A stretch of DNA of 64,000 bases from Desulfurobacterium sp. TC5-1 (GTDB taxonomy: Bacteria; Aquificota; Aquificia; Desulfurobacteriales; Desulfurobacteriaceae), in NCBI RefSeq assembly GCF_000421485.1, contig NZ_ATXC01000001.1:496001-560000 (forward strand), written 5' to 3'. Position 1 is the stretch's first letter; each line of letters starts with the position of its first letter. The position numbers were made by a program, and so were the translations under genes. Under the pieces are notes generated by a model. That model was not told the origin of the DNA and made no database searches. It saw only the letters and a list, made by a program, of their open reading frames with translations. Positions 11,710 through 18,396 of this stretch are shown piece after piece.

Positions 11710-12987
11710 ATGAAAAAAGTTGCTTTTTACACGTTAGGTTGTAAGATGAACTTTCACGAAACCGCTTTTATAGAGGAAGCTTTCAGGAAAGCAGGCTATA
11801 CGATTGTTTCCTTTAATGATGTTGCTGATATCTATGTGATAAATACCTGCACCGTTACCGTATCTGCCGATGCGAAGTCGAGGAAGGCTATTAGAAAGGC
11901 TAAGAATAGAAATCCTGAAGCAACGGTAGTCGTTACCGGTTGTTACAGTGAAGTTTATCCGGAAGCTGTTGCCAGGATGAAAGAGGTTGACATAGTTACG
12001 GGAAATGTTGAGAAATTTAACTTAATTGGCATAGTTGAAAGAGGTGAAAAGGGTGTTTTTGTAAGGGGTGTATGGAACGTTAATAAATTTCAACCATTAA
12101 TGAACCTTGATTACGGTAGGAAAAGCCGTGCTTTTCTCAAGATTCAGCAGGGTTGTGAATCGTTCTGTTCTTACTGCATAATTCCTAAAGCCCGTGGAAG
12201 GATGCTCAGTGAAAGACCTGAAAAAGTCATTGATCACGTGAAGATGCTAACAGATGCTGGATATTCAGAGATAGTTTTGACAGGTACGCATCTTGGAGCT
12301 TACGGGAGAGAGCTTGGCGATGTAACGCTTGCTGATCTTCTCGAAAAGCTTGTCCAGATTCCCGGTGACTTCTGGATAAGGTTGAGTTCTATAGAACCTC
12401 AGGAATTTTCGGATAAGCTTTTGGAGGTTCTTACAGGTAGTGACAAGGTGGCTCCTCACTTTCACATTCCACTTCAGAGTGGAAGTGACAGGATTTTAGA
12501 GAAAATGGGTAGAAAGTACACGACTTCTTACTACGGAGCGTTGATTGAGAAGTTAGTTAATCTTAAAAGGGATGTCTGTATTGGAACGGATGTTATGGTC
12601 GGTTTTCCAGGTGAAACAGAAGAAGACTTTCAGAATATGAAGAAGTTTATAGAAGACCTGCCTTTTGGGTATCTTCACGTCTTTTCTTACTCGCCAAGGG
12701 AGGGAACGAAGGCAGCTCTTATGAAGAATGATGTTCCACCAGTTGAGAAAAAGAGGCGATCAAAGGAGCTTATAGCTTTAAGTGAAGAGAAAAGTTTGCA
12801 GTTTCGCAAAAGTTTTGTCGGAAAAAAGTTAAGGGCCGTTTCTCTAAACAGGTCTGATAAAAATGTTGTTCTTACGGGGAATTACATTCAGATAGAGGTT
12901 GACAGAAGACCATCTTCTAAGTTTGTTGATGTGGTGCTTGAAGATGTTGGAAGAAAAAGAGAGGATAACATTGGCGTTATTGCGTAA
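11710..12987 (+). CDS. mtaB: tRNA t6A37 methylthiotransferase MtaB
   Basis: This radical-SAM methylthiotransferase converts t6A37 to ms2t6A37 in tRNA. The N-terminal UPF0004 domain carries its iron-sulfur cysteines in TLGCKMN, NTCTVT and TGCYSE. The radical SAM cluster motif is CESFCSYCIIP near residue 150, and a TRAM-like domain lies at the C terminus. The 425-residue length and the CKMNFHE N terminus point to MtaB rather than MiaB or RimO. GGAG stands five bases before the ATG. The last 11 bases overlap the convergent rlmN gene. It acts on the product of TsaD, encoded 8 kb away. Confidence 0.93.
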   Translation: MKKVAFYTLGCKMNFHETAFIEEAFRKAGYTIVSFNDVADIYVINTCTVTVSADAKSRKAIRKAKNRNPEATVVVTGCYSEVYPEAVARMKEVDIVTGNVEKFNLIGIVERGEKGVFVRGVWNVNKFQPLMNLDYGRKSRAFLKIQQGCESFCSYCIIPKARGRMLSERPEKVIDHVKMLTDAGYSEIVLTGTHLGAYGRELGDVTLADLLEKLVQIPGDFWIRLSSIEPQEFSDKLLEVLTGSDKVAPHFHIPLQSGSDRILEKMGRKYTTSYYGALIEKLVNLKRDVCIGTDVMVGFPGETEEDFQNMKKFIEDLPFGYLHVFSYSPREGTKAALMKNDVPPVEKKRRSKELIALSEEKSLQFRKSFVGKKLRAVSLNRSDKNVVLTGNYIQIEVDRRPSSKFVDVVLEDVGRKREDNIGVIA

Positions 12988-14014
12988 CCTTTTTTTCTTT
13001 TCCTCTTAACATTCCGCATGCGGCTGATATATCCTGACCTCTTGAATCTCTTATAAATGTGGCGATTCCTCTGTTCCACAGTACTTTCTGAAAGGCTTCA
13101 ATCTTTTCCCTTGGTGGTGTTTTAAATGGTGAGCCCGGGTACGGGTTGAAAGGAATGAGGTTTATCTTGACGGGGATTCCTCTAACAAGGTTTGCAAGCC
13201 TTTCAGCATCTTTTAAAGAGTCGTTTACACCTTCAAGCATCAGGTATTCGATCATTATTCTCCTAACGTTATCGGCAGGATACTTCCTCAGTTCTTTCAT
13301 TATCTCTTTTATAGAATACTTCTTGTTCAACGGTATTAGGTTTTCTCTTGTCTTTTCGTCTGTTGCATGGAGGGAGAGGGCAAGTTTAACTTTTGGAAGC
13401 TCTTTTGCCATTTTTCTTATTCCCGGAATAATTCCGCAGGTTGAAACGGTTATTTTTCTCGTTGAAAGGCCAACCATTCTGTCGTCTGTGAGTATTTGAA
13501 TACTCTTTCTCACATTTTCAAAGTTAAGCAGCGGTTCCCCCATTCCCATGAAAACCACGTTAGATATGCGGTTTTCTATCCCGATATCTCTTTGAACAGA
13601 AATATACTGATCGACAATTTCTGAAGCGGTAAGATTCCTTGTGAAACCATCCTTTGCGGTGAAGCAGAACTTGCATCCTATTGGACAGCCCACCTGTGTG
13701 GATACACATATAGTATTCCAGTCTCTCTCAGGAATGAAAACCGTTTCAATGCGGTTGCCGTCTTTTAATTCAAAAAGGTATTTTATCGTTCCATCCTTTG
13801 AAACTTCTTTGTTGACAATTTTAAGGTTGTAAATTTCTGCCTTTTCTTTTAGTAGCTCTCTTCCTTCTTTTGATATATCAGTCATTTCGTCAAATGAGGT
13901 TGCGAGCTTTTTGTAAAGCCACCTTGCTATTTGAGATGCTCTATACTTTTTAAATTCAATTGAAAGGACAAACTCTTGAAGTTCAGGGAAGGTAAGGGAT
14001 TTAATGTCGGTCAC
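12977..14014 (-). CDS. rlmN: Dual-specificity rRNA/tRNA methyltransferase RlmN
   Basis: RlmN is a radical-SAM enzyme that methylates C2 of A2503 in 23S rRNA and, in many bacteria, A37 of some tRNAs. The SAM-cluster motif CPIGCKFCFTA is clear near residue 105, with VFMGMGEPLLNF and the C-terminal catalytic cysteine in AACGML. GTG 14014 is preferred, preceded by GGGAG at seven bases and giving the normal length of 345 residues. The frame is open to 14089, but that stretch is the 3' part of a separate small membrane ORF in another frame. The start overlaps that ORF by 14 bases, so translation is probably coupled. Confidence 0.95.
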   Translation of the reverse strand: MTDIKSLTFPELQEFVLSIEFKKYRASQIARWLYKKLATSFDEMTDISKEGRELLKEKAEIYNLKIVNKEVSKDGTIKYLFELKDGNRIETVFIPERDWNTICVSTQVGCPIGCKFCFTAKDGFTRNLTASEIVDQYISVQRDIGIENRISNVVFMGMGEPLLNFENVRKSIQILTDDRMVGLSTRKITVSTCGIIPGIRKMAKELPKVKLALSLHATDEKTRENLIPLNKKYSIKEIMKELRKYPADNVRRIMIEYLMLEGVNDSLKDAERLANLVRGIPVKINLIPFNPYPGSPFKTPPREKIEAFQKVLWNRGIATFIRDSRGQDISAACGMLRGKEKKVTQ

Positions 14015-14129
14015 TCTCTTTCTCCCTGTATTCCTGGTGTATTTTGTATGTTTTGTAAAGTCCCCAGGCGGTGGATGTGAAGAGAGCAAAGCCTATAATA
14101 ACGGTAAGACCAAGGCTTATCCAGGCCAT
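14001..14129 (-). CDS. 42-residue single-span membrane protein ahead of rlmN
   Basis: This short ORF encodes one hydrophobic helix (MAWISLGLTVIIGFALF, then TSTAWGLY) followed by a charged tail (KTYKIHQEYREKESDRH). It has an ideal AGGAG six bases before its ATG and a promoter with perfect TTGACA and a 17-base spacer just upstream. It overlaps the rlmN GTG start by 14 bases. The build resembles CcoQ/CydX-type accessory peptides, but I cannot assign it to a family. An N-out/C-in orientation with a cytoplasmic tail is likely from the charge pattern. Confidence 0.7.
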   Translation of the reverse strand: MAWISLGLTVIIGFALFTSTAWGLYKTYKIHQEYREKESDRH

Positions 14130-14157
14130 TTAAGACTCCTGATTTCGTTTAAACTGG

Positions 14158-14186
14158 AATGTATTCCGGCTTAAAAGTAGTGTCAA
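14158..14186 (-). promoter_or_regulatory. Sigma-70-type promoter of the 42-aa ORF and rlmN
   Basis: On the minus strand, TTGACA (14186-14181) is separated by exactly 17 bases from TACATT (14163-14158). The -35 match is perfect and the -10 match is 4 of 6. Transcription would start about 20 bases before the ATG of the 42-residue ORF. It is divergent from the efflux-operon promoter a few bases away. Confidence 0.7.
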
Positions 14187-14199
14187 CCTTGTTGAGAAG

Positions 14200-14229
14200 T
14201 TGACTTTGGAAGCTTTTATTTTTTATACT
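14200..14229 (+). promoter_or_regulatory. Sigma-70-type promoter of the HlyD/ABC operon
   Basis: TTGACT (14200-14205) and TATACT (14224-14229) are 18 bases apart, each 5 of 6 to consensus. Transcription would begin near 14236, about 30 bases before the HlyD-type ATG. The -35 boxes of this promoter and of the minus-strand rlmN promoter are only 13 bases apart, so one regulator could affect both. Confidence 0.6.
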
Positions 14230-14265
14230 TAACGAATAGTGAATCACGGTTCAATGGAGAGGGAT

Positions 14266-15447
14266 ATGAAATTGAAAAGATTTGTGCCGTTTCTGATTTT
14301 GATGGTTGTTTTTACAGTGTCATGTTCTCCTTTTCAGAAGGCAGAAAAGAATGTTTACGTTAGCGGTAGGATAGAAGGAGATGAGATAGACGTTGGAACA
14401 AAAGTACCCGGAAGGGTGGCAAGGGTTTTTGTTCATGAAGGCGATGATGTTGAGAAGGGTGAGACGCTTGCGGTTCTTGATTCTAAAGCTGTTCTTGCAA
14501 AGGTTGCCCAGGCTGAGGCTGCTCTAAAAGCTGCAGAAAAGGCAGCTCAGGCAAAAGAGGAAGAGGTAAAGGTTTACAAAAAACGTCTTAGCGCCCTTAT
14601 CGATAAGAGGAAATCTCTGAAAAAACAGTTGGATTTCCAGCTTAAAATAGCCCGGGAAAAGAAAGATATTGCAGTCAGAGATGTTTCTTTAGCTGAAGAG
14701 GCGTTGAAGAAGGCTAAGGCTGTTTATGAAAGGGCTAAAGCTGATTATGAAAGGTTCAAAAAACTCTATGAGAAGAAAATAATTCCCCGTTCTGAGTTTG
14801 ATAAGGCTGAGATGGCTTTTAAGGTTTCTATGGCAGACTTTGAGAGTGCAAAAGAAAACCTTGCAAAGGCTGAAAAGGCTGTAAAGATAGCTCAAGCCGG
14901 TATTGAAATTGTGAAGAGCAAGTATAACGATATCTCTTCTCTTGAAAATGAGATTAAAGCACTTGAAGCTACTGTGAGAGCGAAGGAAAAGGAATATCTT
15001 GCCTTTCTTGATAGGGTGAATCAGGCAGAAGCAGTTGTTGAGGAGGCAAAAGCCCACCTATCTGATACTGTGATAAAAGCGCCTGTTAATGGAACTGTCA
15101 CTGTAAAGTACGTTAACGTTGGTGAAGTTGTTCCTGCAGGATTTCGTCTCTTTTCAATAGTCAACATGGATGAACTTTACCTTAAAGGTTTTATTCCCGA
15201 AAAACAGGTTGGACTTATACACCTGAAACAGCCAGCTTATGTTGAGGTTGATGCTTATCCGAACAGAAAGTTTCCTGCGTACGTAAGTTACGTTGCGCAG
15301 AAAGCGGAATTCACACCTAAAGAGGTCCAGACAAAAGAAGAAAGGGTAAAGGAAGTGTTTGGTGTTAAGCTTAAATTGAAGTCAAATCCAGGCCATGTTC
15401 TAAAGCCCGGTATGCCTGCTGACGGATACATAGAGATTGAACGATGA
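14266..15447 (+). CDS. HlyD-family membrane fusion lipoprotein (efflux adaptor)
   Basis: This is the periplasmic adaptor of a tripartite-type exporter. A signal sequence ends in a possible lipobox (FTVSC, cysteine 20). A biotinyl-lipoyl-like half (VPGRVARVFVHEGDDVEKGE) is followed by a long alpha-helical hairpin rich in Ala, Lys and Glu (about residues 75-265), then the second lipoyl half (VIKAPVNGTVTVKYVNVGE). Translation most likely starts at ATG 14266, with GGAG six bases before it; GTG 14239 and ATG 14254 are in frame upstream. It is translationally coupled by a 4-base overlap to the ABC ATPase. No outer-membrane TolC gene is adjacent. Confidence 0.88.
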   Translation: MKLKRFVPFLILMVVFTVSCSPFQKAEKNVYVSGRIEGDEIDVGTKVPGRVARVFVHEGDDVEKGETLAVLDSKAVLAKVAQAEAALKAAEKAAQAKEEEVKVYKKRLSALIDKRKSLKKQLDFQLKIAREKKDIAVRDVSLAEEALKKAKAVYERAKADYERFKKLYEKKIIPRSEFDKAEMAFKVSMADFESAKENLAKAEKAVKIAQAGIEIVKSKYNDISSLENEIKALEATVRAKEKEYLAFLDRVNQAEAVVEEAKAHLSDTVIKAPVNGTVTVKYVNVGEVVPAGFRLFSIVNMDELYLKGFIPEKQVGLIHLKQPAYVEVDAYPNRKFPAYVSYVAQKAEFTPKEVQTKEERVKEVFGVKLKLKSNPGHVLKPGMPADGYIEIER

Positions 15448-17297
15448 ATGTTGTTGAAGTTAAGGATTTAAAGAAGACCTACAATAAGGGAAAGACTTTA
15501 GCTGTTGATGGTATCTCTTTCACAGTTAGAAAACAGGATATTTACATATTTGTTGGTCCTGACGGTGCCGGCAAATCTTCAACGCTGAAAGTTATTGCCG
15601 GTGTTCTTGAGTATGATGAAGGTGAAGTCAGGCTGTTTGGCAGGGATATAAAAAGGGAAAGTGTTGTTGAAAGGTTAAAAGATAAAATAGCTTTTATGCC
15701 TCAAGGCTTAGGATTAAACCTTTACCACACTCTATCTGTTGAGGAAAACATAGACTTTTTTGCTGACCTTCACGATATTCCAGAAGATATCAGGGAAAAG
15801 CGAAAGGAGCTTCTCTTAAAGACGACAGGACTTTTACCATTTAAAGATAGGGAAGCTGGAAAGCTGTCAGGTGGTATGATGCAGAAACTTGGAATCTGTT
15901 GCAGCCTTATTCACACGCCGGAAATTATCATCCTTGATGAACCAACAACCGGTGTTGACCCTGTCTCAAGACGGGAACTGTGGAAACTTATCTACAACTT
16001 TGTGAAAAACGAGGGGATAACCGCCGTAATTTCCACGTCTTACCTTGATGAGGCAGAAAGGAGCACTGTTCTTTCCATAATGAAAAGCGGAAAGATTATT
16101 GCCACTGCCACGCCGGAGGCATTGTTTGAAGAGCGGTTGACCGTTTTTGAGGCTGAAGGGAAGGAAGTTGAGAAGGCTTATGAAGTTGCCTGGAAGTTTT
16201 ACAAGGTTCCGCGACTTAAAGGAAACGTTTTAAGGTTCGTTGCTGAAAGAGACCCTGTGGAGTTGGAGGGGCTGGATGTTACGGTAAAGCAGGTTGAACC
16301 GAGTGTTGAAGATGTTTTCCTTTTGAAAACAGGCCTTAAAAGGGTTAGTCTTAAACCGTTTTTTTCAGTTGATTTTCCCGTTCCGGAAGATGCTATAGTT
16401 GTTGAAAATGTAGTTAAAAAGTTCGGTAGTTTTACGGCTGTTGATAACGTCTCTTTTACGGTAAAAAAGGGTGAAATATTTGGATTGTTAGGACCTAATG
16501 GAGCAGGAAAAACGACGCTTATAAAAGTCATGACGGGGCTTTACAATCCCACTTCTGGTGTCTGTGAAATAGCCGGAATGAAGGGAGAGAGGATAAAATC
16601 GGTGATAGGATATATGTCTCAGAAATTTTCCCTTTATGCCGATTTAACCGTTTATGAGAACCTCTTTTTGTGGGGGAAGATATACAATCTTTCAACGGAT
16701 GTTTTGAAAAAGAGAATAGAAGAGTCTCTTTTTCTTGTAGGACTTGAAAAGTACAGGGATACGATTGTGGAAGATCTTCCTTTGGGAATAAAGCAACGTT
16801 TGGCACTCATGTGTGCGGTGATTCATGGCCCTGCAGTTCTCTTTCTTGATGAACCAACATCAGGTGTAGATCCGGCAGAGAGAGATGCTTTCTGGCAAAT
16901 AATACGCTTCCTTGCCAGAGAGATAGGCGTTACGATAATAGTTACAACTCACTATATGGATGAAGCTGAGTATTGTGACAGGATTCTTCTCATGAACAGA
17001 GGAAAAACGATTGCCTTTGGCACGCCTTCGGAACTTAAAAAGGAGACGCTTAAGAAGGTAGGGAAGCTTTACGAGATAAGGACGGAAAATCCTTTCATTG
17101 ACGTTGATAAGCTGGTGAGCAGTGGTTTTAACGCAGTCCTTTATGGAAGAAGGATTCGGATATATTCCAGAGTATCTATATCTGCTGGAGACTTAGAGCG
17201 TGCCGGTGTTAAAGTTTTGCATATAAAAGAGGCGCCGATTTCAATGGAAGATGTGTTTGTCTATGCTGTGAGGAAGCATGAATCTGAGAAAAGTTAA
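15444..17297 (+). CDS. ABC transporter with two fused ATPase domains (YbhF-like)
   Basis: Two nucleotide-binding domains lie in one 617-residue chain. Domain 1 has Walker A GPDGAGKSS, signature LSGGMMQKLG and Walker B IIILDEPTTGVDP. Domain 2 (from about residue 315) has GPNGAGKTT, Walker B VLFLDEPTSGVDP, and LPLGIKQRLAL in place of a canonical LSGGQ; this variant is common in YbhF-like proteins. With the HlyD-type lipoprotein and two ABC-2 permeases it forms a YbhGFSR-type drug or lipid exporter. The 3' end overlaps the first permease by 20 bases. Confidence 0.9.
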   Translation: MNVVEVKDLKKTYNKGKTLAVDGISFTVRKQDIYIFVGPDGAGKSSTLKVIAGVLEYDEGEVRLFGRDIKRESVVERLKDKIAFMPQGLGLNLYHTLSVEENIDFFADLHDIPEDIREKRKELLLKTTGLLPFKDREAGKLSGGMMQKLGICCSLIHTPEIIILDEPTTGVDPVSRRELWKLIYNFVKNEGITAVISTSYLDEAERSTVLSIMKSGKIIATATPEALFEERLTVFEAEGKEVEKAYEVAWKFYKVPRLKGNVLRFVAERDPVELEGLDVTVKQVEPSVEDVFLLKTGLKRVSLKPFFSVDFPVPEDAIVVENVVKKFGSFTAVDNVSFTVKKGEIFGLLGPNGAGKTTLIKVMTGLYNPTSGVCEIAGMKGERIKSVIGYMSQKFSLYADLTVYENLFLWGKIYNLSTDVLKKRIEESLFLVGLEKYRDTIVEDLPLGIKQRLALMCAVIHGPAVLFLDEPTSGVDPAERDAFWQIIRFLAREIGVTIIVTTHYMDEAEYCDRILLMNRGKTIAFGTPSELKKETLKKVGKLYEIRTENPFIDVDKLVSSGFNAVLYGRRIRIYSRVSISAGDLERAGVKVLHIKEAPISMEDVFVYAVRKHESEKS

Positions 17298-18396
17298 AAC
17301 AATTGTTGTTAAAGAATTTAAAGAGATGATAAAAGATAAAATAGGGGCACTTGTTATTTTTGTTGTGCCCATTTCGATGATGTTGATTTTCGGTTACGGA
17401 ATGAGGCTTGATGTTGACAAGATTCCTTTTGTAGTTGTTGATTATGACCACTCTCAGTTGAGCAGAGAGCTTGTTTACAAACTTTCAGCCACGAAAGAGT
17501 ACTTTCATTTTATCGGTGAAGTGAGTTCGGAGAAAGAGATAGACAGGTTAATACTTAACAACAGGGCGCGGTTCGGAATTGTTATTCCTCCGGATTTTGA
17601 GAAAGATATAAAAAGTGGCAAGAATAAGAAGGTTTTCATCATTGTTGATGGTACGTTTCCCTACAGGGGTGAAATGGCAAAAAGTTATGTCGTTGCCGTT
17701 ATTAACCAGATGAACCTTGATAGAATATCAAAACTTACAGGTGCTGCCCTTCCTCTAAAACTGAAAATTCGCTACTGGTTTAATGAAAATTTGAAGCAGG
17801 AATATCTGATGGCTTCCGGGACAATGGCAGTTATTCTATTTATGTCACCTGCCGTTATGGCTTCCCTCCTTATAGCAAAGGAGAAAGAGAAGGGTTCAAT
17901 CTACAACATTTATACCTCTTCAATAACGAAAGTGGAATTTCTGTTGGGAAAGCAGCTTTATACGGTGATAGTTTCCTCTGTAAACTTTTTAATAATCTTT
18001 CTCATGACACTTCTTGTTTTTAAGGTTCCTTTTAAAGGGAATCTTTTATTTTTTGTTTTAGCATCCGTTCTCTTCATGTTTGTTTCAACTGCTTTTGGCC
18101 TTTTACTTTCTACGTTTTTAAACACCCAGGTTTCTGCTTTTGTAGGTTCTATAATACTCACTGTCGTCCCTTCTATTCTGTACTCTGGTTATCTAACACC
18201 AATAAGTGCAATGAACAAGAACGGTCTTTTTATGGCTCATATTATTCCTACTTATTATTACATGAAAATTTTAAAGTCGTGTTTTTTCAAAAATGCAGGA
18301 ATTGTTCCTCTTCTTCCGCACGTTGCAGCGCTTGCTGGATTTTACATTCTTTTCTTTGCGCTTAATGTTAAGTTTTTCAGTAAGAGGGAAAAATGA
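17278..18396 (+). CDS. ABC-2 type permease, first subunit (YbhS-like)
   Basis: This 372-residue permease has one N-terminal membrane helix, a large extracytoplasmic domain (residues about 50-175), and five further helices in the C-terminal half, the ABC-2 layout. EKEKGSIYNIYTS between helices is the typical coupling segment of the family. The ATG has GAGGA a few bases upstream inside the ATPase gene. It probably forms a heterodimer with the next gene product. The substrate cannot be read from the sequence. Confidence 0.88.
   Translation: MNLRKVKTIVVKEFKEMIKDKIGALVIFVVPISMMLIFGYGMRLDVDKIPFVVVDYDHSQLSRELVYKLSATKEYFHFIGEVSSEKEIDRLILNNRARFGIVIPPDFEKDIKSGKNKKVFIIVDGTFPYRGEMAKSYVVAVINQMNLDRISKLTGAALPLKLKIRYWFNENLKQEYLMASGTMAVILFMSPAVMASLLIAKEKEKGSIYNIYTSSITKVEFLLGKQLYTVIVSSVNFLIIFLMTLLVFKVPFKGNLLFFVLASVLFMFVSTAFGLLLSTFLNTQVSAFVGSIILTVVPSILYSGYLTPISAMNKNGLFMAHIIPTYYYMKILKSCFFKNAGIVPLLPHVAALAGFYILFFALNVKFFSKREK

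Follow-up and report, generated by a model that had tools for sequence, protein, structure and literature searches.

A predicted single-pass membrane protein encoded directly upstream of rlmN in the Desulfurobacteriaceae

We found that a 42-codon open reading frame (ORF) next to rlmN in the window, i.e. in the whole stretch of 64 000 nt from Desulfurobacterium sp. TC5-1 analyzed here, is almost certainly a real gene for a translated protein, judging from the selection that acts on its peptide. The product encoded by 14129..14001 on the reverse strand, MAWISLGLTVIIGFALFTSTAWGLYKTYKIHQEYREKESDRH, is by its sequence very probably a small single-pass membrane protein found so far only in the Desulfurobacteriaceae, and we place it in this broad class of proteins as a lineage-specific and uncharacterised representative. 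With a probability of about 60% we consider it to be an accessory or regulatory subunit in the inner membrane which shares an operon with rlmN by inheritance. The features discussed below are:

12977..14014 (reverse strand), rlmN; TIGR00048 with 445 bits (cut-off 290) and PF21016
14001..14129 (reverse strand), small ORF of 42 aa, ATG to TAA; family profile, purifying selection and helix prediction
14022..14026 (reverse strand), Shine–Dalgarno-like GGGAG within the small ORF, 7 nt upstream of the GTG of rlmN; read from the sequence
14136..14140 (reverse strand), Shine–Dalgarno-like AGGAG, 6 nt 5' of the small-ORF ATG; read from the sequence
14158..14186 (reverse strand), sigma-70-like promoter TTGACA-17-TACATT, 10 of 12 consensus positions; promoter scan
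14200..14229 (forward strand), divergent promoter-like site TTGACT-18-TATACT for the HlyD-like gene; promoter scan
14239..15447 (forward strand), gene for a HlyD-type periplasmic adaptor, divergent neighbour; TIGR01730 with 126 bits and PF16576

The small ORF lies directly 5' of rlmN in 18 of the 21 Desulfurobacteriaceae genomes with an assembled rlmN upstream region, which answers in the affirmative a question raised by the first-pass annotation, namely whether the frame is kept at this place in relatives. Upstream DNA was read at 22 loci of these 21 genomes and yielded 19 copies of the small ORF, with two rlmN contigs in one genome (G002). rlmN itself was found in all 22 family genomes, but G020 has only a fragment of it where a contig ends; this genome was left out of the count as both rlmN and a ycaR-like gene are cut there by contig ends. 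Frameshifts or stops in close relatives, which had been named as evidence against a gene, were not observed: the frame is intact in all four genomes of the window's genus (five copies, including one truncated where its contig ends). In the remaining three of the 21 upstream regions (G008, G013 and G015) the small ORF is missing and the ycaR-like gene abuts rlmN, from which we conclude that the small ORF is not indispensable. The two G002 contigs (C31 and C3), both with the small ORF, encode RlmN proteins at 81% and 75% to that of the window, and they likely reflect mixed strains or contamination in this assembly.

A protein search of 61 genomes gave E-values from 1.5e-25 to 1.2e-11 in the four genomes of the window's genus, 7.8e-9 for the contig-end copy in G002 and weak matches (1e-4 to 0.11) in g4, g5 and g7, which are three of the six remaining family genera; further matches at 0.05–0.8 appear to be chance hits, most of them located within long frames or in genomes of a different family. 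When a profile of 18 members was run against 136 genomes of the phylum, it recovered 18 of the 22 family genomes (E-values 4e-22 to 3.3e-17; the four misses include G020 with its broken locus), while nothing comparable was found outside the Desulfurobacteriaceae. There, the search returned seven sub-marginal fragments in five genomes (E-values 0.005–0.008), four of which contain an internal stop and three of which lie within a 371-aa frame. A contig scan with a closer subset of members (A2), which excludes the window's genus, gave 28 stretches, of which the six confirmed ones come from Thermovibrio or Desulfurobacteriaceae. The type strains Thermovibrio ammonificans HB-1 (G011) and Desulfurobacterium thermolithotrophum BSA (G005) very probably carry the small ORF. 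Outside the family, rlmN was searched for in 28 genomes (26 from other families of the class and two from the sister family) and found at an E-value of at most 1e-60 in 26 of them. The upstream genes varied at these 26 loci, and the short hydrophobic ORFs seen near the rlmN start at three of them (L107, 39 aa; L115, 66 aa; L116, 31 aa) do not resemble the small ORF by eye. A plasmid search gave no match to the region.

The substitution pattern points to selection on the peptide. Comparing the window copy (G000) with its nearest relative (G001) over the part of the small ORF that omits the start codon and the last 4–5 codons, where rlmN overlaps, we obtained a pS of 0.67 and a pN of 0.11 in the small-ORF frame, with 8, 1 and 18 differences at the three codon positions. 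The frames shifted by +1 and +2 gave pS/pN values of 0.24/0.23 and 0.04/0.28, and both hold stops. Across the 19 copies pN was lower than pS in all 171 pairs, which are not independent of each other.

The first-pass annotation had proposed a real small membrane protein with a single hydrophobic helix and a charged tail, and this proposal is very probably right in view of the conserved frame, the frame-specific selection and the structure prediction. AlphaFold models one helix over residues 2–41 (mean pLDDT 82.6, 59–65 in the tail; pTM 0.39). With one hydrophobic helix that is conserved as protein, a membrane location is predicted. The window copy has no charge before the hydrophobic stretch and a basic C-terminal tail after it. 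According to the positive-inside rule basic tails remain on the cytoplasmic side, so that the C-terminus would be expected inside. Conservation along the helix was strongest at 100 degrees per residue for positions 5–28 (permutation p 0.011) and at 95 degrees for positions 8–28 (p 0.033), a modest result at p 0.01–0.03, given that it comes from 18 related rows and that both stretches were chosen by us. Most of the best-conserved residues (S5, L8, L16, S19, T20, G23 and T27) share one face of the helix, whereas W22, V10 and L24 are also fairly conserved but lie off this face. The conserved face suggests packing of the modelled helix.

Regarding the expression signals, the rlmN start is most likely the GTG at 14014, as judged from the N-terminus common to relatives. 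Given this start, the small ORF and rlmN overlap by 14 nt in the window, and the GGGAG motif is a possible ribosome site of rlmN. The AGGAG motif at six bases before the ATG, part of the initial description, was found at 14140-14136, and the promoter is present as well, but calling it perfect was an overstatement, since the -35 box matches fully but the -10 box at only 4 of 6 positions. We counted four promoter-like sites in 501 bases compared to 0.8 +/- 1.0 in shuffled sequence, so that such a site on its own is little proof. By eye, the hexamers recur with the 17-nt spacing in the nearest relative (G001) as TTGACG-17-TACATT, and no such site at that spacing was seen in the upstream DNA of G002 and G003. 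The -35 boxes of the two divergent promoter-like sites form a palindrome, which was scored as a terminator-like stem. The HlyD-type gene is divergent from the small ORF also in G001, and another gene lies upstream in G002 and G003. In these two genomes it appears by eye to be a lipoprotein-like gene with LPPGHP motifs (L003:821-1444 in G002, L126:2876-3496 in G003), and the one in G003 matched no model of NCBIfam or Pfam at E ≤ 0.001. In the window, the stretch 14239-18396, divergent from the small ORF, encodes the HlyD-type adaptor, a double-ATPase ABC protein (best model RbbA, under the RbbA cut-off) and, by eye, an ABC permease.

Outside the window's genus the context is different. In all 14 ORF-bearing genomes there, a Trm112/YcaR-like gene lies directly upstream of the small ORF, ending at most 3 nt from its start or overlapping it, and the order is ycaR-like gene, small ORF, rlmN, with the small ORF usually overlapping both neighbours. 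The earlier description of a membrane peptide leading rlmN behind its own promoter thus holds in the window's genus only, and the overlap with rlmN, observed in 17 of the 19 copies (the rlmN starts being our reading), is not obligatory, as gaps of 63 and 9 nt separate the two genes in G005 and G009. The ycaR-like gene is found in none of the four genomes of the window's genus (G000–G003), with no PF03966 match in the window's genome, and is present in the other 18 family genomes and in both genomes of the sister family, where it has other neighbours and no like ORF. The T. ammonificans copy reaches 54.6 bits against PF03966 (cut-off 22) but only 48.8 bits against the NCBIfam YcaR model, under its cut-off of 126. 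Downstream of rlmN we observed a gene for a class 1 fructose-bisphosphatase in T. ammonificans and one for an FAD/NAD-binding oxidoreductase in D. thermolithotrophum, so that only the core of ycaR-like gene, small ORF and rlmN is steady. The fructose-bisphosphatase is Theam_1323, which was detected in the T. ammonificans proteome according to PMC5441870, whose searched text contains neither 'rlmN' nor 'small protein'.

In an RlmN tree of 30 rows, which does not include G001, the window's genus branches apart from the other family members. Small ORFs occur on both sides of this split, so that the small ORF probably dates back at least to the origin of the family. Two changes on this tree are required to account for the genomes without it, G008/G013 and G015. 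We infer that the family ancestor had the small ORF, that it was lost twice, and that the ycaR-like gene was lost in the window's genus. The junction of the ycaR-like gene and rlmN in G008/G013 keeps ATGAGTGAGGT, which can be a remnant of the small ORF or, equally well, the last part of the ycaR-like gene together with a ribosome site. A second RlmN-like paralogue (G000:C1:981746-982528 and equivalents) was observed in 20 of the 22 family genomes, with 29–36% identity and a match that starts at RlmN residue 49–77; G010 has none, and G015 has one of 49% instead. In the sister family f2 (G022 and G023, the latter 64% complete) there is no RlmN match at E ≤ 1e-60 but only a 34% match, like the second paralogue of the family.

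A neighbourhood this close raises the question of whether the small ORF acts on rlmN. As a regulatory leader peptide, only the act of its translation would matter, with coupling or stalling controlling rlmN. That 17 of 19 copies overlap the start of rlmN, that a possible rlmN ribosome site lies inside the small ORF and that the small ORF comes first in the window's genus (in the window behind a promoter-like site) is in line with this, and a short ORF overlapping the start of the next gene is what attenuator leader peptides share with it. However, we did not find selection on position or codons instead of on the peptide, as pN is well below pS and one helix face is conserved; peptide-level conservation, the gaps in two species and the internal position within the gene set in 14 genomes set the small ORF apart from attenuator leaders, and there is no Rfam match in 13001-14600, which leaves a leader role distinctly improbable. 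It is also unlikely that the small protein is a tether which holds RlmN or the Trm112/YcaR-like protein at the membrane, so that RNA modification would occur at membrane-bound ribosomes. Trm112 proteins are methyltransferase partners, the ycaR-like gene matches a model named Trm112_arch, and it lies immediately upstream in 14 of 14 carriers outside the window's genus, in a neighbourhood that is steady including rlmN. Against a tether, the window's genus has kept the small ORF although the ycaR-like gene is missing there, and G008, G013 and G015 have the ycaR-like gene and rlmN but no small ORF. The more elaborate proposal that a family-specific membrane peptide, the Trm112-like protein and RlmN together bring rRNA/tRNA methylation to the inner membrane of thermophiles, or tune it there, appears very improbable, and we know of no example of a membrane component tied to RlmN.

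Small subunits of respiratory oxidases, such as CydX of cytochrome bd or CcoQ/CcoS of cbb3, are comparable in size and typically consist of a single helix, and bd subunit I was found in 21 of the 24 genomes of the order; one of the three without it, G015 (89% complete), lacks the small ORF, too, the others being G012 and G023 of the sister family. However, heme-copper oxidase subunit I is present in none of the 24 genomes, so that cbb3 has no host and a CcoQ/CcoS-type subunit was rejected. A CydX-type subunit is disfavoured, as no CydX, FixQ or FixS model is among the Pfam/NCBIfam matches, bd subunit I occurs without the small ORF in G008 and G013, G012 (83% complete) has the small ORF but gave no bd subunit I in the search, and bd subunit I is encoded about 455 kb away in the window's genome. 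Altogether an oxidase subunit seems a far-fetched reading. More broadly, operon-embedded single-pass proteins of the CydX, KdpF, AcrZ and PetL type share with the small protein a length of 30–45 aa, one helix, a place packed among genes and a short charged tail; they differ in that none of these models is among its matches, and its neighbours are RNA-modification and metabolic genes and not a membrane complex. Hardly credible is a distant homologue of PsbN acting as an assembly factor for a membrane complex, although the Pfam model (PF02468) hits 12 of 18 members (best E 0.0063), in alignments that cover the helix and Y-G-I-Y, the NCBIfam model hits 10 of 18 (best E 0.0042), and shuffling one member ten times gave no match at E ≤ 1. 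The Pfam scores reach 16.8 bits, all under the cut-off of 25, and the alignments stop at profile position 27 of 43 and thus lack the PsbN tail. At genome scale the small ORF was matched in 9 of 24 genomes with at most 13.3 bits, in none over the cut-off, while 13 of 14 control genomes also gave matches (one over the cut-off); on these grounds membership was rejected. The members are also hit by short models that are unrelated, namely phrog_8051 (unknown function; 15 of 18 members at 0.0022), MamM (6 of 18 at 0.0034) and SA1362 (6 of 18 at 0.0055). Moreover, the host bacteria are non-photosynthetic. Finally, shortness would fit an untranslated ORF arisen by chance, but this is contradicted by frame-specific selection, by pN below pS across the copies and by protein and profile matches in relatives, and it can practically be dismissed.

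No Pfam or NCBIfam model matched the small protein above its cut-off, PHROGs gave no convincing match (best E 0.0022, unknown function), and PDB sequences gave no match at E ≤ 1 and thus no solved relative. In the papers retrieved by literature searches, titles and opening lines of abstracts held no description of such a gene.

While a mere leader peptide, an oxidase subunit and a PsbN homologue are disfavoured, an inherited accessory or regulatory membrane subunit accommodates the small ORF as follows. The protein would span the inner membrane with its N-terminus outside and its C-terminus inside, as suggested by the basic tail and the positive-inside rule. Its small-residue face (S19xxxG23, T20 and T27) may pack on another transmembrane helix, either of its own copy or of a larger membrane protein, and its role would be that of a dispensable subunit, accessory or regulatory, in a membrane complex, or that of a self-associating peptide. 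Shared expression with rlmN would stem from the descent of both genes from an operon of ycaR-like gene, small ORF and rlmN, and loss of the ycaR-like gene in the window's genus would have left the small ORF first, behind its own promoter. In 14 genomes the small ORF is enclosed in this packed gene set. Its location next to rlmN is therefore most readily taken as operon order that was inherited, and need not imply action on RlmN.

With the small ORF, a deep-branching lineage of vent bacteria gains a well-supported gene family that has probably been overlooked, and our findings indicate that a family-wide comparison can validate ORFs of 32–44 codons which length cut-offs would drop. If it is true that the small protein acts with RlmN or the Trm112-like protein, RNA modification would be linked to the membrane in these bacteria.
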